64,000 nucleotides of DNA from Isoetes taiwanensis. Taxonomy: Eukaryota; Streptophyta; Lycopodiopsida; Isoetales; Isoetaceae. The notes below the pieces were generated by a model that saw only the letters and a list, made by a program, of their open reading frames with translations, ran no database searches and was not told the origin of the DNA. Both the position numbers and the translations under genes were made by a program. Shown in pieces: positions 5,507 to 35,038 of this stretch (its first letter is position 1; each line of letters begins with the position of its first letter). The stretch spans positions 16,005,491-16,069,490 of the forward strand of contig JAJEKV010000001.1 in NCBI GenBank assembly GCA_021234155.1, in the 5' to 3' direction.

Positions 5507-6645
5507 CAGCCCACTCCGCGAGTCATCATCTAGAGCGGGATTAGTCGCGGCAATGTGACCCCGGTAAACTCATTGAGATTCCACTTCCAAAGCGTGTTGG
5601 AAGTCCCCATGCACCTCCATAGAGTATGGGCCACACTAGTCCCTACCTCCACCCGGGCTGCTCCGGCCACCTCATGCTTCGGCACATGCAGCTACAGGGA
5701 CATCCCCACCCGGGATCATCCGGCCTCACCCGGCCACGTCCTCGGACCTAGCCACAACCAAATCATCGAGCCCTCCCACGAGCCACCCCGTCCCCTAGCC
5801 ACGCCATCCATGGGGCGGCCCCGACAAGCACCCGGCCTCGTCCCACACCACCTCTCCCAACCACACCACCTCGTCCAGCTCCACTCGCGCACCACGAGGA
5901 GTCCTCAATGCATTTGCCTCGGGAGCGAGGAGGAATCCGGGGCCCCGCATAAGCACCCGCAACCCCCTATCACATCACAAGCACCCGGCGGGATCATCAA
6001 CATGGTCGGATGGTAGCACAATAGATGGAAACATCCGCCCGGATCACCGAGCCATTCAAAAGCTTCAATCGGGAAGAGAAAATGCCGGGGACCACTACGC
6101 CTTTGGAAGAGAAGTGGGCACAGCCAAAGCGGCGAGCAACCACGGATCTTGGGGACCTGCACAATAGAATGAGCCAAATATACACCCGGGCCATTAGCCA
6201 TAGAAACCAAGAAATCAGGCACCATTAGATCGGGGAGGAAGATCACGAATCACGGAACCAACACGGGATTTTAACCATTTGTCAAAGGCGGTGGACATTG
6301 CGGAGTATAATCTTGATACAACACATAAGATTCACCCAAAGTATCCACCCCTCGACTAACCAATTGCCATACGGAAGACTCAGCCTCAAACATGATTATG
6401 AAGAAATTATTTGGTAGGAATTTGACCGATGACACGGGCAAACCAATCCGCCTCGGATGTCCAAGAAGCCAAGAGCTAAACCTCCTCGGTGTCCAATATG
6501 TAACCCGTGAAGTAGCCCAATACCGCAAATGAAACTAGATTCTCAATGGTATGAACATGTGCGGTGTGATCAATATCTATCCATGGAGTCTCGGAAGAGC
6601 TACTGCGAGGTCAGCAGTGATGATCCTCCACAAATTTCGTGAGCC

Positions 6646-7281
6646 TTATGAACAGGCGGTCCTACACTCAGGAGCCTTGCACTTGATCCAATCACGAAAA
6701 CCACGGCGAATGATGCGAAACAACGGTGTCATTGCTCCACCGGGGCGGGCCACGGGGAGTTGGGGCTGCGCCACGGCATCCCTGAGAGGTATCGGGGGCA
6801 CCCCGGGAGGCACCTCGGCTACATGCACCCTAGAAGAGGGCACATCACCAGCAAGTGATCCCTTCCCAAGCACAGGGGAAGAGGGCATCACAGATCCAGT
6901 TTCCAAAGGGGGCATGCTTGATGGGATCAAGACCGGAGTCTCCAAAACACAATCTACTGGGGTCTCAGAATTATATTGAGAGGAAGAGCAATCCACATAC
7001 CTCTCAACCGAAGGGGATTCCAAGAGCTCCCTCATCTCTGCCACCAATTGCATGCCACTTCCTACAGCCCCCGCCTCTTCATGCATGCCGAGACCCGTGC
7101 CCTTCCCCTTTACTGGAGGATTCTTCCTCCTCGCCATCTCCCTTAGCTTCAGCCCCAAGCCATGAGGCTCAATCGATCCCCCATCAGCATGTCTGGCAGG
7201 AGCCATGACATCCGAACCAGTCTGGAAATCGGCTGTTTGCGGCAACAAACCACATGCAAAAGAGCTGATGCTATACACCAC
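6646..7281 (-). pseudogene. LINE ORF1-like region
   Basis: An open frame of 211 codons lies upstream of the endonuclease region in the LINE's own orientation, where ORF1 belongs. It is rich in Gly, Pro, Ser and charged residues (for example MARRKNPPVKGKGTGLG), with no CCHC knuckle visible. ORF1 proteins bind the LINE RNA, but that role here rests on position only. The frame may be a remnant or a non-coding 5' region. Confidence 0.4.
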
Positions 7282-7524
7282 CGGAAAGAGCTCGGAACAA
7301 GCTTTCCAAAGAGCCTAAGCACGCCAAAATCTGACACCAGATAAGAGAGATATCGCCGATCAAAGTTTCGCCGTCAGAACCCCAACCGCCCAATTCGACC
7401 GCCTTCCCTCTTCAACCAGAGCCTTTTCTCTTTCTCAATATCTTCTCAGGAGGAGGTTCTCCTACTTCCTCCTTCATGGCTGCATCCCATAATCGGATTA
7501 GGAGCACACAGGCTCTGATACGAT

Positions 7525-7735
7525 CTTAAATTGTAGAGAGAACAGATATAACTAGATACAAATAATATATTCAATATTGAAAAATGATTAAATAGGCCTC
7601 AACCACAACCTAGATATATTGACAATGAACATACTAATAGACACGGCGATTCATATAGGATGTGACTCGATATGGCGCCATGTCATCATGTGCCACATCA
7701 ACATGATCATGTGGCAGGGTTGTCATATTATAACA
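7525..7735 (-). repeat. 5' LTR (right copy) with adjacent primer site
   Basis: About 211 bp related to 141-367, ending on the + strand in TGTCATATTATAACA, followed by target duplication ATTCA (7736-7740). The Met-tRNA-type primer-binding site lies at 7511-7524 in minus sense. The two LTRs differ at many positions, which suggests an old insertion. Confidence 0.8.
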
Positions 7736-7740
7736 ATTCA

Positions 7741-9482
7741 TGCTTTGCATTTCTTTCGATCCATAACTAGCATGTTGCTGATATCTGTCGCTCCATAGAA
7801 CGTAAAGAATTTCTCGAGAAGTCCATTGCATGGCAATCTGACTTAACACTAGACCTGTCCCATGATGGAGAGCATTTAGCATGCTTCACAGAAAAATACA
7901 AAAAAAAATGTATCAACTCCCATTCTTATGAGTTATGCACTAGCAAACCCAAGGGGGTCAAGTAGCAAAAGCTTTATGTTCACACAAAGTAAAGTTGTCT
8001 TAATGAAAAGTTCTTTTATTTTTTTGGTTATAACGTTATTTTTCTAAGAGCAAGATACAAAAAATTGCATCTCAATCTGAAGTCTATGAAGGAAGATAGG
8101 GCCATTCAAGCATGACAGGGGCAAAAGTGTGTTCTACCTTTTGAGAACTAGTACTGGTTCCTAGAAAGTGGTTGTGATATAAAAATAACAACTTTAGGAA
8201 GGAGATGAATTTTGAGTTCAAATTATGCATATAAGTAGTTCATGAAGTCCTCCATTCTAGAAAAATGTTTGTTGAGTTTGAATTTGATGTTTTGACTTGT
8301 ACTTCTAATTTCAATTTTAGGAAAGTTATACAAATGGATAACATTGCTACATATGGCTCTAGGTTGTCCTCCAAAAAATCACATTATGAAAGTTTATAAA
8401 GATATAAAACTAATGCAAAAACAAGCTCGTGAAAAGGCAAAAAGACATGGTAGAAAAACATCAAACACGATTTCTGTACCTTCCCATTATTGGTACATTT
8501 AAAAATCAATAATACCCTTAGGTTAGTGCATCTCAAGTTGAGTTTTGGGACATGAGTAGCTCCTGGACCACTTTGTCTACAAAAAAATTTGTTGGTCATT
8601 ATCTTGAGGATTGTACTAAAATAGATAGCATCAATTATATTATGTAACCATGTTTATTCTAGATTTGTGCTTTAAGGTGTGACTTTACAAAATCACATTC
8701 TCAAAATATCAACCAACGCAAAAAGAACCAAGGATACATATGAAAAGCTTTTACTCTAAAAAATCAGAATAGACTGCCATCTGGAGTCCAGTTGCAGACC
8801 ATCATTGGTCCAAATGACTGAAAGTTTAAAATCAATAATGGCATTACGTTAATCAATTTTGATCTCAACTTTCGCATATAGTTTACTTGCATGATTCTAT
8901 GTAGGATAAAATTAGTTGATTAGGTGAGCTTACATAATTTAAGGGCAAGGTTGAAGCACAAAGAATTGAGAATTTATGGGGCACTTATGACTAATTGAAT
9001 CTACATGGATTTTCACTTACACCTTTCAAAAATCTTGTGAATGAAGCTAAAAAGCCATAGTATCATTCTATGAGGCAAAATGGATAAGGCTATTAAAGAT
9101 ATATGCTCTATGCAATTGGTCTCATGGACCATAAATGATGATGCATGCTTATATAAATTAAAACTTTAGAAATAACATGTTACTTTAACATGCAACTAGA
9201 GATTTATATTGCCAAGAAAGGCTTGCGTCAATGAAAAATATAATATACATGAAAGATGACTTACATGTAACATTATTCTACTTAGATGACAATGCTTTAT
9301 AGAAGAGATCTCTATATATATGTCATTGTTCACATTTTCAACTATTTTAAAGGCTTATTTGAGGAAAGGTAGTGTCTCTTCTATGTACCAAAGAAGCATA
9401 CATGAAATGTCATATGGTCTAATTACATATTGTCATGGCTAAACTTCACAACATTCGCATGAATTCATCAATAAACATCATT
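7741..9482. other. AT-rich stretch with no gene seen
   Basis: About 1.7 kb with many stops in all frames and no domain, repeat array or splice-compatible exon chain that I can support. It is the host flank between the LTR element and the DNA transposon. Confidence 0.6.
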
Positions 9483-9483
9483 A

Positions 9484-9545
9484 AACACGATTGCAAATTA
9501 AACGGGAGTGTTGCATCACTCCCGTTTCAAAGATTCCCTTTAAAA
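9484..9545 (+). repeat. Left terminal inverted repeat
   Basis: Contains GATTGCAAATTAAACGGGAG and CGTTTCAAAGATTCCCTTTA, with an internal mini-palindrome (ACGGGAGTG...CACTCCCGT). It is inverted relative to the sequence at 17810-17892, with some spacing differences. Confidence 0.7.
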
Positions 9546-9833
9546 AAACACCAAGTTTCTAAAATAAGCCTTTTTTGATAGTTGTTAAGAATTTCTAGAG
9601 GTTTGCATTTTTTTTCATGCCATTTTGGCCCATTATTAGACGAAAACTTTGTACTTATGAAACACAAATCATAAAAATAGCAAAATTTAGGCATAGACTT
9701 GAAGAGACTGAAAGCATTACAAAAAACAAGCACCAGAATAGAAAGGAAAAAAAAGTACTATGTTTTTAATAAATTGTTGTACATCAATATTGAAGATTCA
9801 TTGTAATAAATAATGATAATTTTAATATGCGAG

Positions 9834-12800
9834 TCAAAGATCTACATCATAGTCCTCCTCATTCTTTTTGCTGCTCTCTGCCATCTCGTCCTTCTGTTCT
9901 ATCTGCTCCTTTACTGGGGACTTGAGTTTTGTATCCTCCTTGTTCTCTGGAATGGTAGCTAAAGCTACTTCTTTAAGCTCGCAAAGGTTGCCTCATCGTC
10001 TAGTGATTTGGAGAATGGAGAGTTTGTATCTCCGAGGACGTTAGTTTAGCATAATCGATGAAGACTTGGCCCCTAACTCCGATTTTCATCCGGTAAAAGT
10101 AGGTAAGGCCTTGAGTCTCATCTTCACAAAATGCACGACCTCCTTATCAATATCCACGGCTACACAGTTGCGGCCCTTCTTAAGTGCACATGCGATAGTA
10201 GTACCAGAACCAGAGAAAGCATCAAGTACCCAATCTCCTGGACGCGAGAACATGTCCAGGAGATGGTTGATGAGCTTTGTGGTTTCGGTAGTGATTCACA
10301 ATCTGCCTTGTGCACTTGGGTCCCCGCAATTTCGTAAGACTGCTTGAAACTCTAGGGCGTTTGAAAAGTTTTTGGTGGCGGTGTTAAAAGTGATCCATGG
10401 TCCTCTTCCCATCAAAACTCCAATAAGCTACATGAAGGTACTCTACCTTGTGAGAGCAACCTTGGTCCTCCACCATGGTAGTTGATGTTCGTTTTGTACC
10501 TAGTGAAGCATATAAAGTGATATTAGCAAAAACAAGAAAACACTTGAAAACCGTAAACGGGGAAATACTATTCGAATACACACTACGTAATTAAAGAGAA
10601 AAGTAATTGTATTCGGAATAAGACTTACCGCACAAGGTTTTCATATCCACACCGAACCGGAGAACCAAAGTGATTTTGAAAGCCGATTCCACCAAGCGAT
10701 CGCATGCTCGAATGGAGCGTAACTAAACGCCAATGTTTGGCCGTTGAGATCTCCGCTTAATTCCTTCAATAAAAGCATTAAACTCGAAAATTTGAAGGGC
10801 TGGTCGTCAGATGCATTGTCTTTAAGCTTAAACCCATAGGGAAGATCAGCAATAACCAAAGTAAAGTCCTGTGGTTTAACCGATTCCGACAAGGTTCGGG
10901 CAATCACCATGAATGATTGAATATATAAATTGTTTTGATCAAACATGCGAGAATCTCGTGAGTCGGATGGTTCGGCTCTCAGTTCTTCTTTATTCTAAAC
11001 GACCTCTCTTCCCGTCTTTGTTCTAACCAAATTCATAAAGCCCTCGGGTAGGTCTTTATTTTTCTTTTGCTCTAAGAAAAACAAAACAACAACCGTCAAG
11101 AGATCGTTTGTGCGGAGAGAAGGAATTCTAAGTGTAATTACCCAGCCCTCAAAATTTGGTGAATATTGGACAATGTCGTCGGATGTGGCAATTGGGTAGA
11201 GTTCCTTGCACCTTTCCCATGTGTCGACGGCGTTTAGTTGCTCCATCAAACATGTTTGACATGTTATGACGTTTTTTGGCTGCAAGGCGTTAAGGAAACA
11301 ATGAGTTTAAACGAAAGAATGAAGGCAACGTAAAGAAAAACAAATACAAGTCAAGCTAATTGTATTACGGAATACAAACGGTTAACTTGTGATGCTACCT
11401 CGAAACAATATGCGAAAATAGTTCTACTCTGGGACAAACACATTGCTTCTCTAAAAAAGGCATGCGTATTCGAATACCACAGGCCAACATTCGAGGAGCA
11501 ATGTGTATTCCGAATACACATGCCTTCCTTCTGCGGGCAATGTGTATTCCGAATACAATGCCTTTCTAGAGACAAGCAATGTGTATTAGGAATACACATT
11601 GCCCGGGTAAAAAAGGCATGTGTATTCCTGAATACACCAGCCTGTAGATGTTTTTGGGAATCTAACATGCAATAACTAATGTTTGTGTCAGAGAACTTAC
11701 TTGTGTAATTCCTTTGACATTTCTTCTAGGCTAAACTCCTTATCAACAACTTTTTGGAGAAGCTGCTCGAGAAGCTCAGGTGGGAGAAGCCCCCGCATTT
11801 CCCTGGGACGGTAATGGTCATTTCTTTTTGGGTACGCGTCGAGCTTTTTCTTAGTAGTCTCCTTTCCTTGCTCTTTAACTCCCTATTTTCGAACATTGTA
11901 AATATCCGGTCACGAGTTCCCAAATGTTCAAGAAGATTCACGTTAAATAGTTGATTTGCTATTCTGGAATACATTTTGTGCTTACCTTGCCATCTCTAAA
12001 AGCTAACTGGAACCAGTTGTCGTGGCCAATGAGAGACTGCCTTTTGTTGGCCTCGTCATATTTCAGGCAGCATTCAATAGCACACGCCTCCTTAAGCTCC
12101 AAGGAAAATCTTGGCTTCTTGAGGTCCTCACCGTACTTTTCCTTGAATATTACGTACTCCCGTGCATGAACAGGATCTTGTCGTGAAGCTCATCTTTAGT
12201 TTATATTCGATTTGTCAAGATTGTGGGTGTTGGCAGCGATTTTTCGCTTCTTCATCGGTAAGACCCAAGAATGCTTAGCGAGGAGGGGAGGAGAGGTACC
12301 TCGGGTTCTTCTTCTCTTTATAAAGTTGCCTTCTTGCCTTAAAGTTTGTGATTGCCTCCCAAGGCGTAGTGAGTGTAGGTCTCTGCGTTTTTCTGCATCA
12401 TAGTCTGGGGGTTTTGCACTCTTCCTCGTCAACAAGGACAACTATTGGGGCCACATGAGCATTTGGATTGCTCCTTATTACGTCTTTCGAGGTTCCTTAA
12501 GTGATCGGCATAAATTTTCGCGAACTGAAGTGGCCTTTCACCAGCTTCATTTTTTGATTGGAAGCTTCATTGAAGTGGATCGGCAAATAAATTACACCTT
12601 GCACAAACTTGTGCAGGTTAATCTCTTCCATCTTTTCAATTTTGTCTTGTCAACTTTTTTTTTCCTTTATAGCAACACCGGGTGCTTTACCCTTCCCCTT
12701 CTTCTTCTTAGGTTCCTCGGAAATATCCTCTGCGCAATTAAGGCGCGTCCGCTTTTTTAGGCTCTTTAGCAAGCAATTGTGTCCCTTGGCGCTTCTTTGG

Positions 12801-13199
12801 TGGTGGTGACGGTGGCCTTTCGCCGACCGTGATGGACTCCCAGTTGTGATGAGGAATTGCTTTCGGGCTCGGTTGCTCATCCTCTTCCTCGGGCCCGGAC
12901 TCGTTGTAGGGGAAGTCTTGGCTCGTTGTGCCGAACATAGTTGATGATGGGCGGCGACCTCTTGTCGATGTAGTGAGCAACATACTTGTACAGAGAAGGG
13001 GCGAGGATTTACTTTCACCACTCTAAAATAGGATTCATCAACATGAATAAAGCCTTGGGATGTCTGAAAAAGGCAGTCTCCCTCGCTGGCCAGGACTCCC
13101 CGCCTACACTCCGGACCGGATGGTGCCCATGCAAACAAATTCCCTCTCATCGTACCTTTTTGCTCCAAAGACCTCAAACCGGACATGTAGGAAAGTAAG
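9834..13199 (-). pseudogene. DNA N6-adenine/N4-cytosine methyltransferase-like gene (N6_N4_Mtase fold), intron-bearing, frameshifted
   Basis: On the minus strand, motif IV reads VIADLPYGFK (about 10820-10860). Motif I, the AdoMet loop, reads DWVLDAFSGSGTTIACALKK (about 10180-10240; FSGSGTT at 10197-10217), followed by RNCVAVDID. The order IV then I is that of beta-class bacterial N4C/N6A methyltransferases (PF01555). N-terminal to this are a Pro/Lys-rich linker (about 12650-12983) and a conserved-looking block containing LKEACAIECCLKYDEANKRQ and LIGHDNWFQLAFRDGK, ending at a GTAAGC donor near 11987. Another exon ends EEMSKELHK at GTAAGT (about 11700), and another starts after GCAG near 11284. 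The last stop of an acidic tail (NEEDYDVDL) is at 9834-9836. Stops and shifts, for example near 10310 and 10086, break the frame. The motif is DLPY rather than DPPY or SPPY. Base specificity cannot be told. Confidence 0.75.
11463..11640. repeat. Cluster of five GTATTCnGAATAC palindromes in a methyltransferase intron
   Basis: Units near 11466, 11504, 11541, 11579 and 11620 have the core GTGTATTCCGAATACAC or a variant, spaced about 38 bases apart. Each is nearly its own reverse complement. The cluster lies in the long intron between the donor near 11700 and the acceptor near 11284. Confidence 0.85.
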
Positions 13200-14290
13200 T
13201 GTCTTTGTACTTTCGAAAGTACCCCCTTAAAAAAACCATTGAGTTTGAAAGTTTAAGTAGATGGCGGTATGAGATGTCTCCTCAACCCTTCTCGTGGGTG
13301 CGGTTTTCGTTGGGATTTTAACTGGTCCTCTTGTGTTGTTTCTTGCTGCCTTCTTGTGCATTGCAAATTGTGTGTAAACACGATCTTGTTAGAGAAAGCA
13401 ATGGCAAAAACTATTCGAATACAAAATGTCTTGCGAAAAAGGAAAAACAAGGGCAAAAAGAGGACCAAAATGCCAAAACAACACTTTGCAATCTTGACAA
13501 AAAACAGGTCTAAACAAGTTTTAAAAGCGGAAAAAAACACCTAAAGTCACTACAAAAATCACGGAAAAACAAACTTACAAAACAAAGAAACGCAATGTGT
13601 ATTAGGAATACACTTTAAGCCTTTGAGGAAAGGCGAACGTGTATTAGGAATACTTACGCCGCTCCCTCGGCGAAGTGTATTCGAATACACTTTCGCCTTT
13701 CCTCCAAGCGGTGTATTAGGAATACACTTACGCCTTCCCTCAGAAAGTGTATTCGGAATACACTTTCGCCTTTCCTCGGCGAAAGTGTATTCGGATTGAC
13801 ATTTCCTTTAAAGTGTATTCGGAATACACTTTCGCCGAGGGAAGGCGAATGTGTATTCCGGAATACACTTTCGCCTTCGAGGGAAGGCGTAAATGTATTC
13901 CGGAATAAGAAACAGACACACAAATGATTGTACCTTGTACTTTCTTACTCACCTCTCCATGTTTTCTCTATGAGTATCGGAATACAGCTCTGAATATTAT
14001 ATTATATTGGCCGGGCGATTTCACTTCGTAGACCGGAATGTCACGCGAACCTCAAGGCCAAAATTTCCTTTTAAAGGTGTCCATTCCGTCTTGCTCGTTT
14101 TCTATGTGAAGTGGAATACGTTTGGCCTACCGTTACGCTCTAGTGTATTCGGGAATAGCTTTTAGTTTGCCTTTCGCTTAATTGTTGCAGGAAGTTCTAC
14201 TTTTAGTAGGCGGGCTTGTATTCTGGAATAAGAAAAGCTCTGCAGTAGAGAAACATTATCTAAACTCTACACTGTTTTGCAGTTCTTAAG
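13200..14290. promoter_or_regulatory. Divergent intergenic region with a dense palindrome array
   Basis: This is the space between the two divergent transposon genes. From 13590 to 13910 it has about nine palindromes of the form AAGTGTATTCGGAATACACTT, often followed by TCGCC. More diverged copies lie near 13410, 13978, 14148 and 14218. A shared promoter or a binding platform for an element-encoded protein is inferred from position. No TATA box is assigned. Confidence 0.6.
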
Positions 14291-17200
14291 ATGACAAACC
14301 GCTTCGTCAACAAACTTCCACCACCTTTCGTTGTCTCAAGCTCGATGCGGTTCTCGAGGACACGCTTTGGGACCAACGTCGTTTCTTCAAGACCGAATTC
14401 TCCAGACTCCTACCTCGCTTCATCGTTCTTGCTTTCGAAGACACACCGAGTCCAAAGACGTAATGGACTTCCACCACCCTTCCAACCGGTCACCAAGTCA
14501 CGTAGAGAAGACACTGCGGCATCTCCTTCCAAAGAATCACCACTAGTTCGGCCGGGCTGCCACCACCCTTTGCTCCATCCCGGGACTCGCGAAGCTCCAC
14601 AACAAAGGGTGCTCAAGAACAAGCTACCCCCTTTTGTAGTTTAAAGCCTCCTTCGTGCAAACATACAAAGGAACACGTAGAAAACACGTAAGAAGGCGTG
14701 AGATTCACTACAATTTCTCTCACCGGGACTTCACTACAAATGAGGACGAAGCTCCAAGATGCACTCCTCTTCACACAACAAGGGTTGTGACACATGGATT
14801 TGAGAATTCAGTCCGGCTCTAAAGGAGATGTTTGCAAGAACTCCTTTTCAAGATGGTACAAAACAAACTGATGCCACAACCTCTTATGGGCCATCACCAC
14901 CCTTTAACACTGTACCCCGCCTATTAGGGGAACAACTTCACGTGGTTCTGTTTTCCTCTACAAGCACACCACTCGTGACGAGAGGAAGTCACCCCTCAGA
15001 GTAGAAGTTTCATCAGAAGATGAAGACACCAACGAGGAACAAAGAGATTACATGTTCTCAAGCCAATCTTCAAAGAAATTCAAGGTGGATTTTTGGTTTG
15101 AGGGCTTGCTCCTCTGCAAGAAGAAGAAATCTTATGGATGAACGAGAAAATGAGGAGACTTTTGAGAACTAAATGCTGCTCATTGGGTTGCATCAACGGA
15201 CTTAACATGGCTAAATTACGGCGGTTAGAGACAACTACTGAGTTCCATGACATTGGCGCACTGAATGCCTACTTAGCTTATCATGTAAGACCAGACCGCA
15301 ACACCTTCTTGCACTACATTAACCGCCAAGAAGTTTGCCGAAAATGTTTTATGGTTGTCCACCGTTTAGGGTCCACAAGAATGTCTAGAATACACAAAAA
15401 GACTGGACAAAAATCCAAGAATCGATGATCATTGTGGACCAAGAAGAGTTGTAACCATGCATGCCCTTCTTCTTTGTCCTGGATGGAGAAATATTTTAGA
15501 GAAACATGTGAGAAGCTACCTAACAACAACATGTATCATTTAACCGATAACATCACCAAAAAGATGTTTTAATGAGTACAAAAGAGACTTGCACTTCGCC
15601 TTCAAAGACATCTCTTACTCACACTTCACGACCGTGGAAAAGTGAATTCGGTCTTGTGAAAATTCCTAGAAAACATAGAATGTCCGTTTTTGCTCGAGGT
15701 GTGCGTAATTAAAGAGTCAACGAGAAAACCGCAAAAGACAGAGGTCAAAAAGAAGTAAGTTCATGTTCTCCAATCTCTCACTTGTTTTAGAGAAAATGCT
15801 TTGACCTGATTTCTTTCTACGGATATTGTGCATGAGAACCTTGCCGGACATCGTGAACAACAAAGCAAAGCAGAGAGAAGAAAGCTTGCCAAGCATAGAA
15901 AAAAGCTCTTGAACGTCCAGCGCAATACATGTCTGTTGTGATTGATGGAATGGACAAAAAACAACTCTACCACATTTCTTGAACATTCCTAAAGATGTGC
16001 GGAGGAATGTTTTGTTAAGGTCCACCTTGTAGGAGCTATGGTCTTCAAAGGAAGTCTAAGGTGCAAAAGTTTTTTGACGTATCCAAACTTGCATGGTGAC
16101 CCGAACCTCACAATTACAATTCTTAACAAGGTCCCAGGCGAGCAAGAGCAATTACCACCGATTGCTTTATGCGCAACTTGACAATACTACAAGGGAGAAC
16201 AAGAATCAAACACTCTTTCGCATCTTGTGCCATGTTAGTGGAGCTAGGGATCTTTAGAAAAGTGAAGCTCGGTTTCTTACTTGTAGGCCACACTCATGAT
16301 CAGATTGACCAAATGTTCAGCAGATTTTCTGTGCGCCTTAGAAGGAAGAAGGCTTTCTGTCTTCCTTCTTTAGTTCGAATTATTGAAGATTCTTACACTC
16401 CTACTCCAGTGGTCGATCTTCTTAAAGAGACTGCTGATTTCAGAGAGTTTGTTTTCTCTCAACGTTCAAAGAGAACAAGTTTGTGAACAAGTTGAATGAT
16501 CTCACCTTTCAACATCATATCAAGTTCTACTTGAAGGATGGCCAAAGCTTCTTACAGGGGAAGAAGTATACCACAACTAAGGACTGGAGTCCGCCAGAGG
16601 GATTACGCTTCCTTAAATATATTCCAGACACTTCCTTCATAGAACGTGCTGAGCAACTTCCTCTCAAAAATCCTAAGGAGTCCAAGGAAGAAAAGTACCC
16701 CGAGTCATCCTTAAAAGCCATTGAAAATGGAATTTCCTCGGAGCTTTAAGTACTTCTTAGAAGAAGATGGGATGTGGTGGAGTAATTTCTTTCTCGAACA
16801 GAAAAATTGTTGTACAAAACATAGCTCTAAGACGGTTGCAAGAACCATTTCAATGGCCTAACACCTTCCATCAACCCCAGCACCAAGCAGGTCCAAGCAG
16901 TGCTACATTTGCACCTGAAGTAGAAGACGAGGAGGACCGAGTCATGTACCTCGGACCAAGACGCAGGAATGAGCCCCAAGGTAATATCACAGAAATTACC
17001 AAAGGTATGCTAATTGCTCTTCCGATCGAGGAGGGATGACAAAGGTCGACCGATTCGGATAGCAAAAGTGCTTGACACGATCAAGGAGGAAGGCTTAGTC
17101 ACTAAACTCAAGATTCATTGGCTTTGCAACACGCTCGAAAAATGCTTTTGAAGGTAGATATGAGTTAGAAATGAGAAGCCAAGGAAAAGGGAGAAAGTCC

Positions 17201-17514
17201 AAGAAGGTGGGTTGTAGGGACGAGCTGAACCTTAATGACGTGACTATATTGTGCTATGATTTTAAATTGAAATCTGACAATCGTCTACGCCTGAAGACTA
17301 TCAATTTGCTTAAAAAAGCTTGTAATTATGAAGAAGATGATGAAGAAGGTGGTGACAATGCTTCACCGTCTGTTGATAGTGATGAGGAAGATAACTCAAA
17401 GCACTTCCTCAGTGTGATGATGAAAGAAGTGAAGGTGATGGCGATGGCATAAATGAACATGAGGACGTCCTGGATCCCTCTCTCATCACTCCTCACACTT
17501 TTGCACATAACTGA
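14291..17514 (+). pseudogene. DUF7869-like transposase, frameshifted
   Basis: Blocks in order on the plus strand: a Cys-rich block CCSLGCINGLNMAKLRR followed by RQEVCRKCFMVVHRLGSTRM (15170-15380); WMEKYFRETCEKLPNNNMYH (about 15480-15540); VVIDGMDKKQLYHIS (about 15935-15980); QLDNTTRENKNQ (16174-16209); LLVGHTHDQIDQMFSRFS (about 16278-16335). A C-terminal acidic region (17326-17500) ends at TGA 17512-17514. The DGMD, QxDNxxxENKN and GHTHDxIDQxFS blocks are the hallmarks I associate with the DUF7869 family, and they look like a DDE/RNase-H-type active site (inference). Several frameshifts and stops separate the blocks. The N-terminal part (14291-14644) is not recognisable. Confidence 0.7.
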
Positions 17515-17807
17515 GTCTTAGAAAAAGACTGTAAATTTTGATGTGAATATGAAGATTCTATCTTCAAATTTTGAGAATACTACAGTTTCAATTACACACT
17601 TACTTCAATTTTTTGTTAAATATTTTATCCTCTGAAATTAGAGTTTCTCTCTTAAAACATACTTTAAGAACATTCTTTTTGCTAAGAAAAGTGACACTTT
17701 AAAAAAGTCAATTCCTTCGTTGCAAAAAAAATTTAGTCATTTCGGGGGGGTCAAAATAGAATTTCATGCATCTTTTTTTTTTTTAACCTAATTTTACCCC
17801 CTTTTTC

Positions 17808-17892
17808 GTAAAAAAAAAGGGAATCTTTGCGGAATATTCCTTTTGCTCTCGTTTCAATGATTTGCTCCCGTTTAATACGCAATCTTGTTATT
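17808..17892 (-). repeat. Right terminal inverted repeat
   Basis: The + strand reads AAAAGGGAATCTTTG near 17815, then CTCCCGTTTAATACGCAATC at about 17865-17884. It is inverted relative to 9484-9545. The flank TTGTTATT follows, and no clear target duplication was found. Confidence 0.7.
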
Positions 17893-18614
17893 AGCTATAA
17901 TTATTGTGAAGTTTTGGACCTATAATTTTGGAGTTAACTTAATATTTTATGCTCTAATGTGTTAATCCTGTTGCTGTAGATCATATTTTAATCCCAAAAA
18001 TTGCATGGATACACCCTAGTTACACTATATATAAGTTGATAAGAGTTAAGTTCTATGTAGATAGATATAAGCATAATGCATCATTTATTACTCTCATGGT
18101 ATTATGGATGGTTCTTATTGAAGCATTTTAACATAAACTCTTGACCTGAATTTTGTATAGTAGATTCTTTTAATAAATATTGAGGTTCACATGATATATG
18201 AACATTCCAAAAAATCATAAACTATAGTTCATATAGTTACAGTTCATGACCACAAGAATTAAGTCAAAACTTGTTGTAATAAGAGAGAAATAATTCTCGA
18301 ACCTCAAGCGACTTTTTTGACCAAAATAGGATTTGGCCGCTTCTATCGATTACAAATGATAGCAAGAAAATAGTGTAGAGCCTGCCAAATTCTCCAATGT
18401 TTGAGCAATCACCACAAGATATAGGTGACCCCATTGGTTATGAAATTTTCAGATTTCATAAAGAAACAAATGAAGACTCAAAAGGTGGCGTATATTCCAA
18501 AATTAAAATTTCTATTGTGAGTTACATGGGTTTAAGGGGCAAAGGTCATGTGGGTCAATTTTAGCCCATGGATCAAGAATCGTCCTACAGACATGTCTAG
18601 TGTTAACAAGGAGT

Positions 18615-25042: not shown

Positions 25043-27666
25043 CTACGTATTTACAGCTTGCCAACCAGCCTTGGCTTGTCTAAGAGCCTTTACTCGATGT
25101 GATAGAAAACCAACCGTTATGCCAATAACCCAACCTAACAGAAGACAAAAGACACCAAAGAATGGACTGTACAGAAGTCTAGATCTGTGGGGAGGCAGCA
25201 GGTCCATCTTATTCTTGACATTCTGAGAAGGTATATCAACATAGTCATGAACTAACCCATCATGATTACCGACGTATGAGAGTCTCAGGTTGCTTCTGTT
25301 TGCATGCAGCCTTACATAACCAAATTCTTCACTTCTATACAATGACCAGTGTGGCTGTGGAAATATAGGAAAATCAGGTGGTCTGCCTGCCTTCCCAGGC
25401 TGGTTGCCAGTCCTGGCCACCCATTCCAATGACAACATGAATTGGAAACAAACCAGGTTCTCCACATGTAAAGTTCATTGTTGGGCATATTCTTTCATAC
25501 TTGTGAACATGTCCCCAGAGTACCAAGTCTACATTATACTTGAGCAACAAAGGTTCCAAGTGTGTTAGCATTTGGAGTCGTACAGGAGCATCCCTTGTCT
25601 CGTTGTTAGAGGTATACATTGGACGATGTCCAAGAACCACTATGAATGGAGTCCTTTCTATGTCAACCTTCTGCAGGTCTTCAATTAGAAAAGCATACTG
25701 ATCACTCCCAGGGAGAAAATTCGTCTCAGTTGAAAAGTAGACAAAATGTACTACTCCAAATGACAAAGAATAATAAAGATTTCTTATCGCAGGTGCCATT
25801 GTCCCTGTGTGTAAAGATGAATTGCCTGGCATTTGAAATCGTAAACTATAGGGGACACCACATTCACCGCCCCCATCTCTCCCATGGACATTAGCAGCCC
25901 AATCTGGCTTCCATGGCTGTAATGGCCAGTCATATTCATGATTTCCAATGCAAACATGATATGGCATACGGGCTGCTATGGGCTCTATTCTGGTGAAGAA
26001 TTCATCCCATAACCAGGCATAGCCTCTTGCATAGCTTATGTCACCTATATGTGAAATAAATGTTGGCTTTCCAGCAAGTGCTTCTAAATCACGCATTATC
26101 CAGCTGATAGTGTTCCTACTTTCAGCTTGAGTCCACATGAAAGTTTTGTATGGGACATAAGTCCCCATGTCCCCAAAAAAAAATGCATTTGTCTCATCAT
26201 ATACAACAGATGGAGAAATGAAACTGTAAATTTGGCTCCTTCATCGCTTCCAACCTATCAAGCACCACAACAAAACCTTCGTGATTAGCTCTGAGAACAG
26301 AAATAAACTGCCTAGAATCATCAGCATGTCAGCAATGCAACACCATTTTTTTCTCAAGCCATGTGTTTCATTAAATCCAATCCACTCCATAAATAGTACA
26401 TACATATATAGTCAGTGTTTTTAAGGTAAAATTAGAACAACTTATTGGCCCGCAAGATAATACCAATTTCTAATGCAGTACACTGTAGCCTACGAGACAG
26501 TAACTTTAAGGCTGTAATGCATACAATGGAATACAATACAATCCTCATACACAGTGCAATATATTTACTATCAATGAAATGAAAGCAGAAATGATAGTTA
26601 TGCAAAGGAAATAACTCATCTTCAAACATTTCAAGTTATGGCTGTAGATGCATTAATCTATACTTTTGCTAACTTTATTTAGATGGATATACGATGACAC
26701 TCGGTCATAAAGCATTTATCTGACAATGGCTTGTTATGTTCATGCATGATGGATGCTATGAAAAGTTAAACAAAATTTTGGTATATTTTTGCTTTCTTTC
26801 AAAATCTTGAGCGTCGAGTAACAATGTGTAATATAAATGAAGAATATATGAGAAATAAAGTCTGCAAAGTAACGACTGCATGGGTGTCAATTCTAAAGGA
26901 AAATATAATCCTATTCCTGTATGCATGTGCACAGCGGATAGAGAAGAGGTTGCGATTTAAATCAAACCTGGTAGAAGTACTGTGTTTTAGCTTTCAAATT
27001 CCTCATGACACCATTATGAATATAACCCGGATCTCTCCATCCAAGAGTTGTGTTTGCAGGTCTATCACACATTTCTGACTTTCTATATGTGACAACTGCA
27101 GTGGCAACTCTAAAGCCTAGCTGGCTATGATCCAAACCATACTTTACAGAAGTTTGAAGAGCATCCCTGGTAATGAACATCACTCGCATCTCTCCATCAT
27201 GAGAAGTTAGGGCCAAGTGTATTTGAGTAGGCTCATTGAAGTTCTGAAACAGGATGTTTTCACTTACTGCCAAGCGGATACTTGTATCTGGCAAAGGGTT
27301 TTTATCCTCGTCCATAGGGGTATCCTTACTGATGTTGGTAAGCAAGCCCTGAAACAATCTGAACTGATAGGGTGCCCGCATGTTGGTCAAAGGCAATTCA
27401 AGAGAGCATAACCCTGATTTCCAATCATCACATGAAGATGACAAATCAATGTAACCTATAAAATTATCATCTGCTGACTCGGGAGGTGTATATATGCCAA
27501 CCCAATTTAAATCTGCAGGTGAATCTACAGCATTAATTGTCATATTCACAGACTCACCTGAATGTTGTAATGGGAGCTTTGAAGTAATGGTGATAGATGG
27601 CAATGCATTGCCCATCTTTACAGAAAATAAGAAAATCAATATGATGGAAACCATTTTGATTGCCAT
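25043..27666 (-). pseudogene. Purple acid phosphatase, PAP2/PAP9-like, tail-anchored (copy A)
   Basis: A two-exon gene. Exon 1 (27666-26968, 233 codons) starts MAIKMVSIILIFLFSV, a signal peptide; the upstream in-frame ATG at 27882 is less likely. It then encodes the N-terminal beta domain and ends TQYFYQ before a GT donor. Exon 2 (26254-25043) has all five metallophosphatase motifs: [32 protein letters not shown] and LWGHVHKYE. It continues with YVGNHDGLVHDYVDIP and a C-terminal hydrophobic anchor (LLYSPFFGVFCLLLGWVIG). The family hydrolyses phosphate esters at an Fe-metal centre; members with this tail sit in organelle outer membranes. Two breaks are seen: about 4 bases seem missing after VGSDEG (about 26236), and GGCA is doubled near 25380. 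The catalytic domain is thus out of frame with both ends. Intact length would be about 637 residues. Confidence 0.8.
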
Positions 27667-28152
27667 GGCGGTCAAAGCAATGAATTTACAGATCCGATCT
27701 GGTAGATTGTAATAGAGGTAGATAACCCAATCTTTTTCTCTGGAGGGATGCAATGATCTTGCAGAAGCAACGAAGGCAAGAACAGAACAGAAGAGGACGA
27801 AGAAAAATGAATTAGAAGGAAACAAGGTCTGGACCTGTAACCGGCATCGGAGAACATTCCACGTCCATGGTGGAAAAGTCAATATGGGATATGCATCAGA
27901 AGATATCAGAACGTTTTTTTGAGGAATCCGCTAAACGAAAATCCCAAATTCCTGAGTTTAGACACGAGAGGAAGAGTCGCCATTCCGGCAATTGGAACGC
28001 GGGCAAACATTCTCCCCAACGCGCCAATACACGCTGGAATTTCCCTTAATTTTCTGTGACCGTCTGATTAAATCTAACGATGGAAAGTGCATCCACGTGG
28101 AAAAAAGTCCTAGTTGGCAGCAACGTGGAAAAAAGTCCTAGTTGGCAGCAAC

Positions 28153-28185
28153 GTGGACACTCTAGAATTGCTTCAAAGTGTCCAC
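28153..28185. promoter_or_regulatory. GTGGACACT inverted repeat upstream of PAP copy A (copy 2 of 4)
   Basis: Same GTGGACACT...AGTGTCCAC structure about 490 bases upstream of the PAP start. Nearby sub-blocks are duplicated in tandem here (CACGTGGAAAAAAGTCCTAG; AAGTGTCCACTTGCG). CACGTGG is a G-box-like core. Confidence 0.5.
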
Positions 28186-28645
28186 TTGCGTAAGTGTCCA
28201 CTTGCGTTTGTGCAAACGTGCTAAAAAAAATCGATTTTTTATAGTCTGCACACACTACATTTTGCTTTTATTACTATATATATAGAATTATACATCTGTT
28301 CAATTTGGCCACAACTGCACCAATATCTCTCCCTCCTTTGAACTTCCTCGATGATTATCATATTGAAAATTTACATTACTACTTTGCAGGAAATCTTCCT
28401 CAATTTCGTGCCGCCAAAAACATCGTCACTTTTGTTTTGTAGAAGCAGGTAACTTCACTTCAAAATATTCAGGATTACAAACTTCCATCCTCTCTTTATA
28501 TATGATTTGCTTTAATGCCAACTGATTTTTTATTTCTAGATTGATTTTTGTGAACCTTGTCCATGCTTTATTTTCCAACATTCAGAATTGTTGTGACAAC
28601 TAGATCTTGCATGAAAAATTAGAAGAATAGAATAGAATAGAGTTT

Positions 28646-29185
28646 TTATTGTCCACGGAGACCAATTGGCCTATGGGACCCAACAAGAGGCACAACAAGC
28701 GAATTACTGTCCGGGTTAAAAAACCCCCTCCCCGTCCTAAAGGGTTGTTTGGGGTACAGGAATAGGCTTGCTGTCAAACTATACAAATACAAAAACAAAT
28801 ACAAATATAAACAGAAATATGTACATGCATCAGGTAAGTTCCCGAGGGCCAAGCTGATCTCGACGATCCATGATCTCTTGAATGTATGAGCCAACCTCCG
28901 TATCGAGCTCATGCTCAGCATCTCATGCAGGGGCTGGCCAGGATGGACCAACTCAGCATAGCATGTCCGAATGTCATCATATGCTGGGCAACTCTGAAGG
29001 GTGTGGCATCCATCTTCCACAACTTCAACATGGCAGCGTTGACAAAGCCTCTTCTGACGCAGCTCCCCAACCCATCTCCCTGTCTCAATCCGGAGATGGT
29101 GTGCACCTGTCCGGATAGAGGCAATGGATCTGCGCTTTTTCATGGGCAGATGAGTGTGCAGGTAGCATTGCAGACCCCGCTCCAA
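28646..29185 (-). pseudogene. LINE ORF2 C-terminal zinc-binding tail (copy A)
   Basis: The frame encodes HHLRIETGRWVGELRQKRLC, then CQRCHVEVVEDGCHTLQSCP, a Cx2C...HxxxxC finger at the C-terminus of the LINE protein, followed by a short tail. It is separated from the RT frame by frameshifts. Confidence 0.75.
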
Positions 29186-29768
29186 CCTGGGATTTATGTG
29201 GCGTTGATAATGTCATGTCTTGACTTGTTCAAGGGTGCTGGCATCCCATAGCTTACTGAGGAAGCATGCGTCAAGGTACTGTCTGAGACTGTGGCAATCT
29301 ACCTCCGTTTGCACTTGGACGTACCTGTACACATTCCATCTGGCCAGCCACTGAGCTCTCTTTTCCCGCCATCAGGCTTTTAGGCGTTGAGGCCCCATTG
29401 CCATAGTGTAAGCGAGGTGAGGGAGATGAGTATCGTCCATGCTGACTACCTTCTGGAAGTAGACGATGTGTCTGTCAAGGGCTCCTCTTTGAAGTGGCAA
29501 GAAACCTGTTTTCTGCAACAGTATCTGGTATGGGACTGTGGACTTCACCCCCAGGGCTCGTGCCAAGAAAGCTTTTTGCACCTGCTCCAAGTGGCGAGGG
29601 AAATCACTGGGCCCCAGACCTCGATCCCATACAAAAGCGCAGGTTCTACTAGCACCTTGAATAGTGCGATTGGTGGGCCCAATCATATAGTTCCGCCTTG
29701 TGGCTATTGTTCTCCATTGCATAGAGTGCCTTCCAACTTGGTGCGGCTCGCAGCCGGATGGAATTATT

Positions 29769-30272
29769 TCAGTTCATGGCCGACAGGAACTCCACCCCCA
29801 AATATTTGTAAACAGACACCACTTCAACATTTTGGCCACGATAAGTGAGGATTGGAGGCGTTGGTTGGCATGTGGACGATACCAGAACCACCTTGGTTTT
29901 GGCTAAGTTGACATGCATTTCAATCACCTGGCAAAATGTGTCCAGGGCATTGAGATGGCGTTGCATGTCTGCCTGAGTGTGTGTTAGGAGGTCTACATCA
30001 TCATCATAGATCAGCTGCCTGATGATCTGGTGTAGGAGGTGGGCCCCAGTACCTCCATTATCAGCGAGTGAGCTCTCTAGCTGATCAATATACATGCCAA
30101 ATAGTGTGGAAGAGAGAGAGCACCCCTGACGGACCCCAATACTGCTCTCGAATGGTCGGCCTGCTGGTTGCAACCGGCCGGTGCATGTCTCATATAACCT
30201 GTACACCGCGTTCTGCAGGTCGGCAGGGACGCCTAGCTGCTGCAATCTTGCCCACAGCTTTTCCCGAGGCAC
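29769..30272 (-). pseudogene. LINE reverse transcriptase fragment (copy A)
   Basis: The frame contains MPREKLWARLQQLGVPADLQ, SIGVRQGCSLSSTLFGMYID (RT block 4), LIYDDDVDLL (the catalytic box, YDDD instead of the usual YADD; about 29997-30008), VNLAKTKVV and VSVYKYLGVEF. The reading frame is interrupted after 29769. Confidence 0.85.
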
Positions 30273-31065
30273 AATGTCAAAAGCCTTGGCGAAGTCTATA
30301 AAGCAGCAATACAGATCCTGCCGACGGTTCCTACTGTCCTCAACCAGAGTCCGCAGCGCGAAGATATGATCTATGGTTGAGTGCCTCGGCCTGAATCCTG
30401 CCTATGCGAGTGCCCGCACTTCTGCTGCTTCTGCCACTAGACATACAAGAAAAAAATGCTTTTATACCACAACTTTGCTATCAGATAATTTCGACCAGCA
30501 AAGTTCTTAGAATCAAAACAGACAACCACAAAGATTTGAGAAGTGGCTACCATATTTGCAAAGTTGCTCTGCAGACTAGGTATTAGATCGCACGGTGGCA
30601 TTTCAATCATTGCTAGGAAACCTAATTCGGCTCTACCACAGCATAGCTCGGTTTTGTTCTGTTCTACATCTACTGGCTATGATGGGACTACCAGATCTAC
30701 TCTAGTAAAGCTGGAGACACCATTAAATACAGCCTCAAAACAAGTCGATTGACTCCATAGCATCCGACAGATCGTTTCGTCTCGATCCTAAAAAGAATGA
30801 TACAAGAAATGGAAGGAATTGGCAGTAAACGCTAAAACGAAACAATATAAAGAAACAAAATGTTTACCCTAGAAGCGGCTATACTGCTATTGGATGCAAG
30901 AATGATGACAGGAATCGAAGAAAAGCCAGGAACGCGCTTCCCAAGATATCCCGGCGCACACATAACTGCTGTGACTTGGAATTTCCATGAATTTCTGAAG
31001 CCGTAGATGAAATCCAACGACGGAAACATCAGCCACCTGCACAAAAATCCCACACGGTAAAGAAC

Positions 31066-31099
31066 GTGGACACTCACGAAATTGCTTCAAAGTGTCCAC
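31066..31099. promoter_or_regulatory. GTGGACACT inverted repeat (copy 3 of 4)
   Basis: GTGGACACT...AGTGTCCAC in unit B, corresponding to 24184-24216, with small changes in the flanking bases. Confidence 0.5.
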
Positions 31100-31119
31100 T
31101 TTGCGTTTAATAAACGTGC

Positions 31120-31124
31120 TAATA

Positions 31125-31174
<50 letters not shown>
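31120..31174. repeat. (AAT)n microsatellite, unit B
   Basis: Copy of 24236-24292 with similar repeat number. Confidence 0.95.
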
Positions 31175-31176
<2 letters not shown>

Positions 31177-31925
31177 TACAAGCATAATAGGAAGCAACAT
31201 AATATAAGGGTGCCAAATGAAGCAGCGTAATATGAGGGATGTCAAAGCGTGCCAATTGTAAATGCTACCTGGTTGCATCTACAAACTTTCTACCATCTAA
31301 GTAGGAAGATTGCTCCAGATAATCTCCACATTGGTTTATGATCTTCAAATATTCCTATCTCATTTACGCTACAGTTTCCTTGAAAATCAGGAACTTCTGC
31401 CATAAGCCCCTTTAGCAAAGCCTCTCGTGGCCAGCAAGACAAATTTTAGATTAGTTCATCGCTCAATACGTGCTCTATAGCTGTAATCCACTGGGTAGAA
31501 AACAAATTTACAAATGCACATACTATACGCTCCACAATCATGAAGGTAAATGGTGAAATAACAATTGCATATGGAAAAAGGATGCTGCAATTTCTGAAGA
31601 GAATTCTCGTCCTAAATGACATCGAAATATGTTTGCTATCTCTTGCTGCAAAGGCTTTTATAAATTGTGTGGACCAGTATGCTGGAAAAAATGCTTTTCA
31701 CATACACTGCTTCCACAATGTCTCAAATAGTGTTAAGAACAGAATGGAATAGAATTGAGGAGGCATGCATTTAGCAACCTAATGCTGGTGAAAAGGGATG
31801 ATGTCCACTATCATGTAATCCTACCAAATTACCATCTACTTAGCATGTCTACCATCAGATTTAAGCACATCCATGTTTATATTTTCAAATGAACATTATA
31901 GAATTTCTCCACATATAGTGTGTAG

Positions 31926-34547
31926 CTACGTATTTACAGCTTGCCAACCAGCCTTGGCTTGTCTAAGAGCCTTTACTCGATGTGATAGAAAACCAACCGT
32001 TATGCCAATAACCCAACCTAACAGAAGAAAAAAAAGACACCAAAGAATGGACTGTACAGAAGTCTAGATCTGTGGGGAGGCAGCAGGTCCATCTTATTCT
32101 TGACATTCTGAGAAGGTATATCAACATAGTCATGAACTAACCCATCATGATTACCGACGTATGAGAGTCTCAGGTTGCTTCTGTTTGCATGCAGCCTTAC
32201 ATAACCAAATTCTTCACTTCTATACAATGACCAGTGTGGCTGTGGAAATATAGGAAAATCAGGTGGTCTGCCTGCCTTCCCAGGCTGGTTGCCAGTCCTG
32301 GCCACCCATTCCAATGACAACATGAATTGGAAACAAACCAGGTTCTCCACATGTAAAGTTCATTGTTGGGCATATTCTTTCATACTTGTGAACATGTCCC
32401 CAGAGTACCAAGTCTACATTATACTTGAGCAACAAAGGTTCCAAGTGTGTTAGCATTTGGAGTCGTACAGGAGCATCCCTTGTCTCGTTGTTAGAGGTAT
32501 ACATTGATGTCCAAGAACCACTATGAATGGAGTCCTTTCTATGTCAACCTTCTGCAGGTCTTCAATTAGAAAAGCATACTGATCACTCCCAGGGAGAAAA
32601 TTCGTCTCAGTTGAAAAGTAGACAAAATGTACTACTCCAAATGACAAAGAATAATAAAGATTTCTTATCGCAGGTGCCATTGTCCCTGTGTGTAAAGATG
32701 AATTGCCTGGCATTTGAAATCGTGAACTATAGGGGACACCACATTCACCGCCCCATCTCTCCCATGGACATTAGCAGCCCAATCTGGCTTCCATGGCTGT
32801 AATGGCCAGTCATATTCATGATTTCCAATGCAAACATGATATGGCATACGGGCTGCTATGGGCTCTATTCTGGTGAAGAATTCATCCCATAACCAGGCAT
32901 AGCCTCTTGCATAGCTTATGTCACCTATATGTGAAATAAATGTTGGCTTTCCAGCAAGTGCTTCTAAATCACGCATTATCCAGCTGATAGTGTTCCTACT
33001 TTCAGCTTGAGTCCACATGAAAGTTTTGTATGGGACATAAGTCCCCATGTCCCCAAAAAAAAATGCATTTGTCTCATCATATACAACAGATGGAGAAATG
33101 AAACTGTAAATTTGGCTCCTTCATCGCTTCCAACCTATCAAGCACCACAACAAAACCTTCGTGATTAGCTCTGAGAACAGAAATAAACTGCCTAGAATCA
33201 TCAGCATGTCAGCAATGCAACACCATTTTTTTCTCAAGCCATGTGTTTCATTAAATCCAATCCACTCCATAAATAGTACATACATATATAGTCAGTGTTT
33301 TTAAGGTAAAATTAGAACAACTTATTGGCCCGCAAGATAATACCAATTTCTAATGCAGTACACTGTAGCCTACGAGACAGTAACTTTAAGGCTGTAATGC
33401 ATACAATGGAATACAATACAATCCTCATACACAGTGCAATATATTTACTATCAATGAAATGAAAGCAGAAATGATAGTTATGCAAAGGAAATAACTCATC
33501 TTCAAACATTTCAAGTTATGGCTGTAGATGCATTAATCTATACTTTTGCTAACTTTATTTAGATGGATATACGATGACACTCGGTCATAAAGCATTTATC
33601 TGACAATGGCTTGTTATGTTCATGCATGATGGATGCTATGAAAAGTTAAACAAAATTTTGGTATATTTTTGCTTTCTTTCAAATCTTGAGCGTCTAGTAA
33701 CAATGTGTAGTATAAATGAAGAATATATGAGAAACAAAGTCTCCAAAAAAACGACTGCATGGGTGTCAATTCTAAAGGAAAATATAATCCTATTCCTGTA
33801 CATGCATGTGCACAGCGGATAGAGAAGAGGTTGCGATTTAAATCAAACCTGGTAGAAGTACTGTGTTTTAGCTTTCAAATTCCTCATGACACCATTATGA
33901 ATATAACCCGGATCTCTCCATCCAAGAGTTGTGTTTGCAGGTCTATCACACATTTCTGACTTTCTATATGTGACAACTGCAGTGGCAACTCTAAAGCCTA
34001 GCTGGCTATGATCCAAACCATACTTTACAGAAGTTTGAAGAGCATCCCTCGTAATGAACATCACTCGCATCTCTCCATCATGAGAAGTTAGGGCCAAGTG
34101 TATTTGAGTAGGCTCATTGAAGTTCTGAAACAGGATGTTTTCACTTACTGCCAAGCGGATACTTGTATCTGGCAAAGGGTTTTTATCCTCGTCCATAGGG
34201 GTATCCTTACTGATGTTGGTAAGCAAGCCCTGAAACAATCTGAACTGATAGGGTGCCCGCATGTTGGTCAAAGGCAATTCAAGAGAGCAAAACCCTGATT
34301 TCCAATCATCACACGAAGATGACAATTCAATGTAACCTATAAAATTATCATCTGCTGACTCGGGAGGTGTATATATGCCAAGCCAATTTAAATCTGCAGG
34401 TGAATCTACAGCATTAATTGTCATATTCACAGACTCACCTGAATGTTGTAATGGGAGCTTTGAAGTAATGGTGATAGATGGCAATGCATTGCCCATCTTT
34501 ACAGAAAATACGAAAATCATTATGATGGAAACCATTTTGATTGCCAT
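31926..34547 (-). pseudogene. Purple acid phosphatase, PAP2/PAP9-like (copy B)
   Basis: The duplicate of copy A: exon 1 34547-33849 (233 codons, start MAIKMVSIIMIF), exon 2 33134-31926. It shares copy A's two frame breaks (after VGSDEG near 33116 and the doubled GGCA near 32274). It has three more. Four bases are missing where copy A reads GHRPMY (near 32506), destroying the fourth phosphatase motif in frame. One C is missing in a C run near 32752. Two extra bases in an A run near 32030 cut the membrane anchor at FFGVFFFFC. Exon 1 is intact and differs by few residues (for example VYLYYNLPH upstream, SIMIFVFS in the signal peptide). It is certainly homologous; the extra breaks may be decay or consensus error. 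Confidence 0.8.
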
Positions 34548-35005: not shown

Positions 35006-35038
35006 GTGGACACTCTAGAATTGCTTCAAAGTGTCCAC
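35006..35038. promoter_or_regulatory. GTGGACACT inverted repeat upstream of PAP copy B (copy 4 of 4)
   Basis: Same structure as 28153-28185. The CACGTGGAAAAAAGTCCTAG sub-block that is doubled in unit A occurs once here. Confidence 0.5.

Follow-up and report, generated by a model that had tools for sequence, protein, structure and literature searches.

A DUF7869 DNA transposon family carrying a predicted beta-class DNA amino-methyltransferase

Architecture of the element

We examined a 64-kb stretch of DNA (contig C907:16005491-16069490 of the 1.66-Gb genome assembly G000; hereafter, the window), in which an 8,406-bp DNA transposon spans positions 9484 to 17889 and holds a transposase gene and a methyltransferase gene. 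The transposon ends are 25-bp imperfect terminal inverted repeats (TIRs) beginning 5'-AACA. With up to 3 mismatches allowed, the TIR pattern GATTGCNNATTAAACGGGAG occurs at two sites in the window, 9489-9508 (+) and 17865-17884 (-), where 0.01 would be expected by chance. The outermost ends lie a few bases beyond these matches, at 9484 and 17889, and ATTA target-site duplications (TSDs) stand directly outside. As the initial annotation had proposed, a single TIR pair thus encloses both genes; of the span it gave, 9484..17892, the start holds and the end is corrected to 17889. The main features are as follows.

9480..9483, no strand: left TSD, ATTA (window sequence)
9484..9508, +: left TIR, AACACGATTGCAAATTAAACGGGAG (inverted-repeat and pattern search, other copies)
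9834..13350, -: methyltransferase gene, decayed, at least 5 exons; N-terminal region, possible ParB-like region, linker exons, and predicted beta-class amino-methyltransferase; 5' start approximate
10197..10223, -: motif I, DAFSGSGTT, S-adenosylmethionine (AdoMet) binding (PF01555, E=2.2e-14)
10830..10856, -: motif IV, VIADLPYGF, catalytic; DLPY replaces the usual DPPY
11361..11636, no strand: palindrome array 1, TGTATTCCGGAATACA type, in a methyltransferase intron
11986..12690, -: possible ParB-like region, frameshifted in the window copy (weak matches in copies L029 and L030)
13598..13867, no strand: palindrome array 2, intergenic between the divergent genes; degenerate units run on to about 14232
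14291..17514, +: transposase gene, decayed; Pro-rich N-terminal part, DUF7869 core, C-terminal beta domain
15938..16486, +: DUF7869 RNase-H-like core with DGMD, QLDN, and GHTHDQID blocks (PF25273)
17865..17889, -: right TIR (inverted-repeat and pattern search, other copies)
17890..17893, no strand: right TSD, ATTA (window sequence)

The transposase lies on the + strand with the methyltransferase divergent on the - strand, and both genes contain introns. This much had been recognized from the start; what had gone unmentioned is that the window copy is decayed: several frameshifts interrupt it, and each gene has one or more in-frame stops. The family assignments also held up, as the DUF7869 and PF01555 profiles match on opposite strands (5.3e-26 and 2.2e-14), and every sequence block quoted in the initial annotation (DGMD, QLDN, GHTHDQIDQMFS, VIADLPYGF, and DAFSGSGTT) is found in the window. 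The features of a TIR DNA transposon are present together: terminal inverted repeats, a TSD of fixed length, and a transposase with a modelled RNase-H fold and an acidic triad. By eye, a subterminal hairpin-like repeat, AAACGGGAGTGTTGCATCACTCCCGTTT, can be seen at the left end (9498-9540), and a CGTTT...CTCCCGTTT motif recurs at the right end; both are possible transposase binding sites.

The transposase

The window open reading frame (ORF) matches PF25273/DUF7869 with 91.8 bits against a gathering score of 26, and copy L030 reaches 174.8 bits. Numbered on the homologue P0001, an ENA protein, three aspartates are conserved among the aligned sequences: D39 in 44/45, D119 in 50/50, and D161 in 50/50. 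The modelled core gives fold matches to integrases and Mos1, and we therefore describe it as modelling as an integrase/mariner-type RNase-H fold with three conserved aspartates. The C-terminus (approximately residues 396-480 of P0001) is beta-rich and returned repeated weak Foldseek matches, none with a significant E-value, to the BAH-domain proteins DNMT1, EBS, and AIPP3, so that the modelled domain is possibly a chromatin reader.

The same transposase family is represented by DUF7869 proteins of Riccia sorocarpa, Adiantum nelumboides, Mytilus, and Branchiostoma and thus occurs in animals too. These share approximately 33 to 60% identity with the window transposase over at least a quarter of the query region, and P0001 shares 79%. 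The name DUF7869 was not found in the literature searched, which covered a minority of subscription journals and no bioRxiv preprints.

The methyltransferase

We modelled the methyltransferase gene from ORFs and reading frames in the window together with the better-preserved copy L030, using GT..AG introns. The PF01555 match scores 54.4 bits in the window and 63.8 bits in L029 (gathering score, 26.7). Catalytic motif IV precedes AdoMet motif I, which is the permuted, beta-class arrangement. CcrM matches across the whole catalytic part (E=2.6e-8), a phrog_67 DNA methyltransferase matches at 1.4e-21, and the best 25 of 68 PADLOC matches to the methylase query are almost all methyltransferase models; the other two proteins given to PADLOC had no matches. 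These results identify the second gene, as a prediction from sequence, as a bacterial-type, circularly permuted beta-class amino-methyltransferase.

Motif I residues are each preserved in 17 to 29 of the 31 to 34 aligned copies. The consensus of motif IV is (D/N/S)PP(Y/F/W), and the DLPY of this family has three of its four residues, with one proline consistently replaced. Across copies, the motif reads D in 30/34, L in 29/35, P in 33/35, and Y in 28/35; because leucine is found in so many, it is not a mutation of the window copy.

Upstream of the methylase, a stretch in L029 and L030 has weak matches in three libraries at about the same place (phrog_723 ParB, 0.003; TIGR03764 ParB, 0.04; DUF6551, 0.0025), which points, weakly, to a possible ParB-like domain. 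Neither the window methyltransferase (6086 candidates scored) nor a three-copy alignment (8000 candidates scored) found a match among 5.8 billion proteins, although the short-word first step of both searches limits their sensitivity. Scans with the methyltransferase alignment found none in prokaryote genomes and a single weak methylase locus in viral contigs (L033), and a tblastn comparison of the N-terminal half, including the possible ParB region, with phages found none.

The two genes are coupled across the genome

We collected 15 long copies as inward-facing TIR-core pairs 6.8 to 8.8 kb apart, from the first 100 places listed, plus 5 shorter pairs. Identical 4-bp TSDs flank 15/15 long pairs and 4/5 short copies. 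Methyltransferase exons were detected by tblastn in all 15 long copies (not every exon in each) and the transposase core in 14, having been lost in L022. None of the long TIR pairs is thus a transposase-only copy, the arrangement that would have spoken against the coupling put forward in the initial annotation. Nor does the methyltransferase have insertion ends of its own: the window holds no further TIR pattern, and in the long two-gene copies, the ends bracket both genes.

Choosing copies by spacing is biased toward complete elements; therefore, two tests independent of spacing were run. The genome lists comprised the top 150 scored of 2016 first-look candidates for the methyltransferase and of 7053 for the transposase. 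Between these top-150 matches, 48 pairs lie within 30 kb of each other, compared with 0.8 expected under uniform placement; 47 of them are divergent, and 37 are separated by 4.7 to 6.6 kb. The second test took 20 of the best-scoring transposase matches without a listed methyltransferase partner and examined the expected position, where methyltransferase exons were present at 16 loci (only partially at L035). Three of the four misses have Copia-type retrotransposon sequence in the interval, judged by eye, and one (C919) has no such explanation; among the interrupted loci, C963 still shows the start of the methyltransferase gene, and C1034 has a palindrome array beyond the interval. Four loci were also fetched whole, two with both genes listed (L029 and L030) and two with long transposase frames (L031 and L032). 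Both genes and 4-bp TSDs are present at L029, L030, and L032, and L031 has the transposase and an N-terminal part of the methyltransferase, the 10 kb fetched there showing neither a methylase core nor a TIR. The methyltransferase is part of the element, and at the level of the family, the coupling is genuine.

Two shortcuts were rejected. Zero megablast coverage over the methyltransferase in 8/15 long copies (plus L022) could be read as absence of the gene, but sensitive blastn and tblastn searches reveal a diverged gene, with 52 to 81% DNA identity per 300-bp window. Counts of the 11-base TIR core do not serve as copy number: it occurs 864 (+) and 870 (-) times, and its backward-read control is more common (1071/1089), so copies were identified only by spacing, TSDs, and gene content.

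Shorter elements share the TIRs. Four of them (L024, L025, L027, and L028) are 3.5 to 4.3 kb long, with 4-bp TSDs, palindrome arrays, no transposase, and mostly unrelated filler; three retain one methyltransferase exon fragment. We rejected them as autonomous relatives, since besides ends and arrays they hold no more than a single methylase exon fragment and lack a transposase, and from their sequence, they are apparently non-autonomous relatives. In a further copy, L026 (G000:C179:611734-615673), the TIR element is palindromic and the inversion extends into its flank; its TSDs are mismatched, and methyltransferase pieces lie on both strands. It is either a fold-back element or a product of misassembly.

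Palindrome arrays recur at two fixed places

The TGTATTCCGGAATACA-type palindrome forms two clusters at the same two places in 16/16 long copies. Of 162 units in these copies, 75 lie in the methyltransferase intron, 87 are intergenic, and 0 are elsewhere in the elements; L019 has one intergenic unit only. Units are spaced approximately 41 bp apart, with 78 of the 130 spacings under 150 bp measuring 39 to 42 bp. Allowing up to 3 mismatches, the window has 7 matches (0.28 expected), all within the element, and the remaining 55.6 kb has none. From this placement, we regard the arrays as candidate binding sites for one of the two element proteins.

Selection and module exchange

Between better-preserved copies, the methyltransferase has a pN/pS (ratio of the proportions of nonsynonymous and synonymous differences) of 0.13 to 0.21. 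Among the first 16 copies, its median dN/dS (the corresponding ratio of divergences) is 0.16 within group g2, 0.17 between g1 and g2, and 0.57 within g1, with the first two values drawn from unsaturated pairs, as synonymous saturation excluded 17/36 g2 pairs (19/36 used) and 49/63 g1-g2 pairs. The transposase in the same copies has a dN/dS of 0.59 to 0.62. Values of approximately 0.4 to 0.6 are the level expected of decaying copies.

A further analysis projected 35 copies on L030 and took medians from 12 hand-picked copies. Median pN and pS are 0.247 and 0.768 for the methylase and 0.170 and 0.752 for the possible ParB region; median dN/dS over unsaturated pairs is 0.32 (25/66 pairs) and 0.24 (20/48 pairs), respectively. 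For L030 and L009, pN and pS are 0.087 and 0.685 in the methylase and 0.129 and 0.682 in the possible ParB region; for L029 and L030, they are 0.118 and 0.778 and 0.092 and 0.820. In a closer pair, L030 and L043, the methylase dN/dS is 0.42. Because the low values fall on long branches, the methyltransferase sequence was maintained during multiplication of the element, and substitution patterns show the signature of purifying selection.

The 15 copies aligned to the window differ in how far each part has diverged. Element positions 5701-8400, from the transposase core to the right end, are 85 to 97% identical per 300-bp window in all copies having them. The left 3.3 kb falls into two classes, with 73 to 98% identity in six copies and 52 to 81% in nine. 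A split at 3.3 to 5.1 kb is independent of the left one: L010, L011, and L015 resemble one another on the left only, and L012 and L014 show the reverse. Because these splits are discordant, methyltransferase types have reassorted beside one common transposase end. We considered breaks at the palindrome arrays and rejected them, as identity changes mostly near 3.3 and 5.1 to 5.4 kb, outside the arrays, and near 4.2 kb in L018 alone.

Other features of the window

A purple-acid-phosphatase-like gene (Metallophos) at 25374-38400 (-) is seemingly partly duplicated, and its closest solved structure is diphosphonucleotide phosphatase 1, a lupin enzyme. Taken with the Riccia and Adiantum relatives of the transposase, this makes a plant host likely, although DUF7869 is also carried by animals. 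Two nearly identical N-terminal phosphatase ORFs (26962-27930 and 33843-34811) lie 6,881 bp apart, and nearly identical reverse-transcriptase ORFs are found near the two copies (29769-30401, RVT_1; 36619-37251). By its sequence, the region seems to be a tandem duplication of approximately 6.9 kb with part of a retrotransposon inside it. Farther along are a Ty3/gypsy-type gag ORF at 53762-55450 (-) (562 aa; Retrotrans_gag, 1e-8) and a 474-aa ORF at 58469-59893 (+) that matches no Pfam family at 0.01 and in which a C2H2-like stretch was noted by eye. Neither Rfam (at gathering scores) nor a tRNA scan gave a match in the window.

What the methyltransferase may do for the element

The window element is probably a decayed copy of a high-copy cut-and-paste family in which a selected methyltransferase is integral to the element and marks element DNA, the marking step being our extrapolation. 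The N-terminal half of the enzyme, together with the two palindrome arrays, would perhaps serve to recruit it to the element, whose DNA it would then mark at N6-adenine or N4-cytosine. This mark could alter binding of the transposase or of the host silencing machinery and in this way time or protect transposition. In bacteria, Dam methylation times IS10/Tn10 transposition. A bolder version, which we consider rather doubtful, is a "self-writing" transposon, in which the N-terminal (possibly ParB-like) half targets the arrays, a mark other than 5-methylcytosine (5mC) spreads, and methyltransferase modules, swapped between elements next to a shared transposase, give differing specificities. If it were true, the family could put a second DNA mark across much of a plant genome, a scale based on at least 150 scored and approximately two thousand first-look candidate methyltransferase exons.

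Other explanations have to be weighed against the preferred one of a mark on element DNA. That the two genes are chance neighbors, or that a methyltransferase gene or element happens to be nested within one transposon copy, draws on nothing beyond the decay of the window copy; it is already refuted for the family and extremely improbable, given the two-gene layout in 15/15 TIR-bounded copies (one without the transposase core), 47/48 nearby pairs, and 16/20 transposase-anchored loci and the lack of a second TIR set in the window. The pair might instead work like a restriction-modification system, a nuclease with its antidote, in which marked ends limit cutting by the element's own transposase or restrict it to hemimethylated, freshly replicated ends. 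Divergent genes flanking a shared control region with palindrome arrays, the strong linkage of both genes, and the phage and bacterial beta-class relatives that are modification enzymes are all consistent with such self-protection, but short, apparently non-autonomous relatives sharing the TIRs (L024, L025, L027, and L028) evidently moved in the same genome, and we think this account unlikely.

A mark directed outward, with the enzyme acting on host chromatin or competing with the host's own 5mC silencing and so countering silencing instead of controlling transposition, is likewise improbable. It would fit the weak, statistically nonsignificant BAH-reader likeness of the transposase C-terminus and the repeated capture of TET/JBP dioxygenases by fungal DNA transposons of several superfamilies (PMC12730594), but the chemistry is opposite, since the enzyme here would add a mark and not remove one. 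Finally, the protein may not methylate DNA at all: it could methylate RNA instead, or be a regulator of the element that binds DNA but is catalytically inactive. Leucine in place of the first proline of DPPY in 29/35 copies and weak similarity of the motif IV exon to rRNA/tRNA guanine methyltransferase families (E, 0.03 to 0.06) lean this way, whereas the IV-X-I motif order is that of beta-class DNA methyltransferases, the best matches are DNA methyltransferases, and AdoMet motif I is preserved in most copies, which makes this reading quite unlikely.

An active enzyme would mean that a plant-like genome receives from a mobile element a DNA mark distinct from 5mC at 150 or more places (scored exon matches, including decayed copies), and the reality and function of 6mA/4mC in this lineage would be directly testable at defined, repeated loci. 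Selection on an enzyme within a selfish element also makes the family a clean setting in which to study why modification genes are carried by mobile elements.

Comparison with known systems

Mariner transposons that carry methyltransferases have hosts that, from their names, we take to be large DNA viruses. These mariners (PMC3627910) resemble the window family in pairing a DDE transposase with a methyltransferase in a DNA transposon, and they have a mariner transposase, an extra endonuclease gene, and Methyltransf_26 or C5-cytosine methyltransferases. In contrast, the window family has a DUF7869 transposase, is nuclear and high copy, and carries a predicted beta-class enzyme with a possible ParB-like part and no endonuclease seen. 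Retrotransposons provide further parallels: DIRS elements, which have an adenine methyltransferase domain of DAM type, and DNMT-bearing elements, including Ty3/gypsy (PMC5890265, PMC6338049), likewise place a DNA methyltransferase of their own in a selfish element, with purifying selection reported for the DNMT elements. Unlike the window DNA transposon, these are retrotransposons with C5 or DAM-type enzymes. According to one of these sources (PMC6338049), land plants such as tracheophytes lack transposon-encoded DNA methylases, a statement on which the present family bears if its host is a land plant.

The fungal TET/JBP transposons (PMC12730594) have, like the window family, captured an enzyme that modifies DNA bases, although theirs is a methyl-oxidizing dioxygenase in other transposase superfamilies. 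The bdelloid rotifer N4CMT (PMC8885841) is, as the window enzyme is predicted to be, a bacterial N6_N4_MTase (PF01555) of the permuted beta subtype kept in a eukaryote; it is a host gene fused to a chromodomain and marks transposons, whereas the window enzyme lies inside one. In the literature searched, we found no nuclear DNA transposon described as carrying a beta-class amino-methyltransferase. Mobile elements with DNA methylases are already known, and a nuclear DUF7869 transposon with a predicted beta-class amino-methyltransferase is a new combination, a new variant on that theme.

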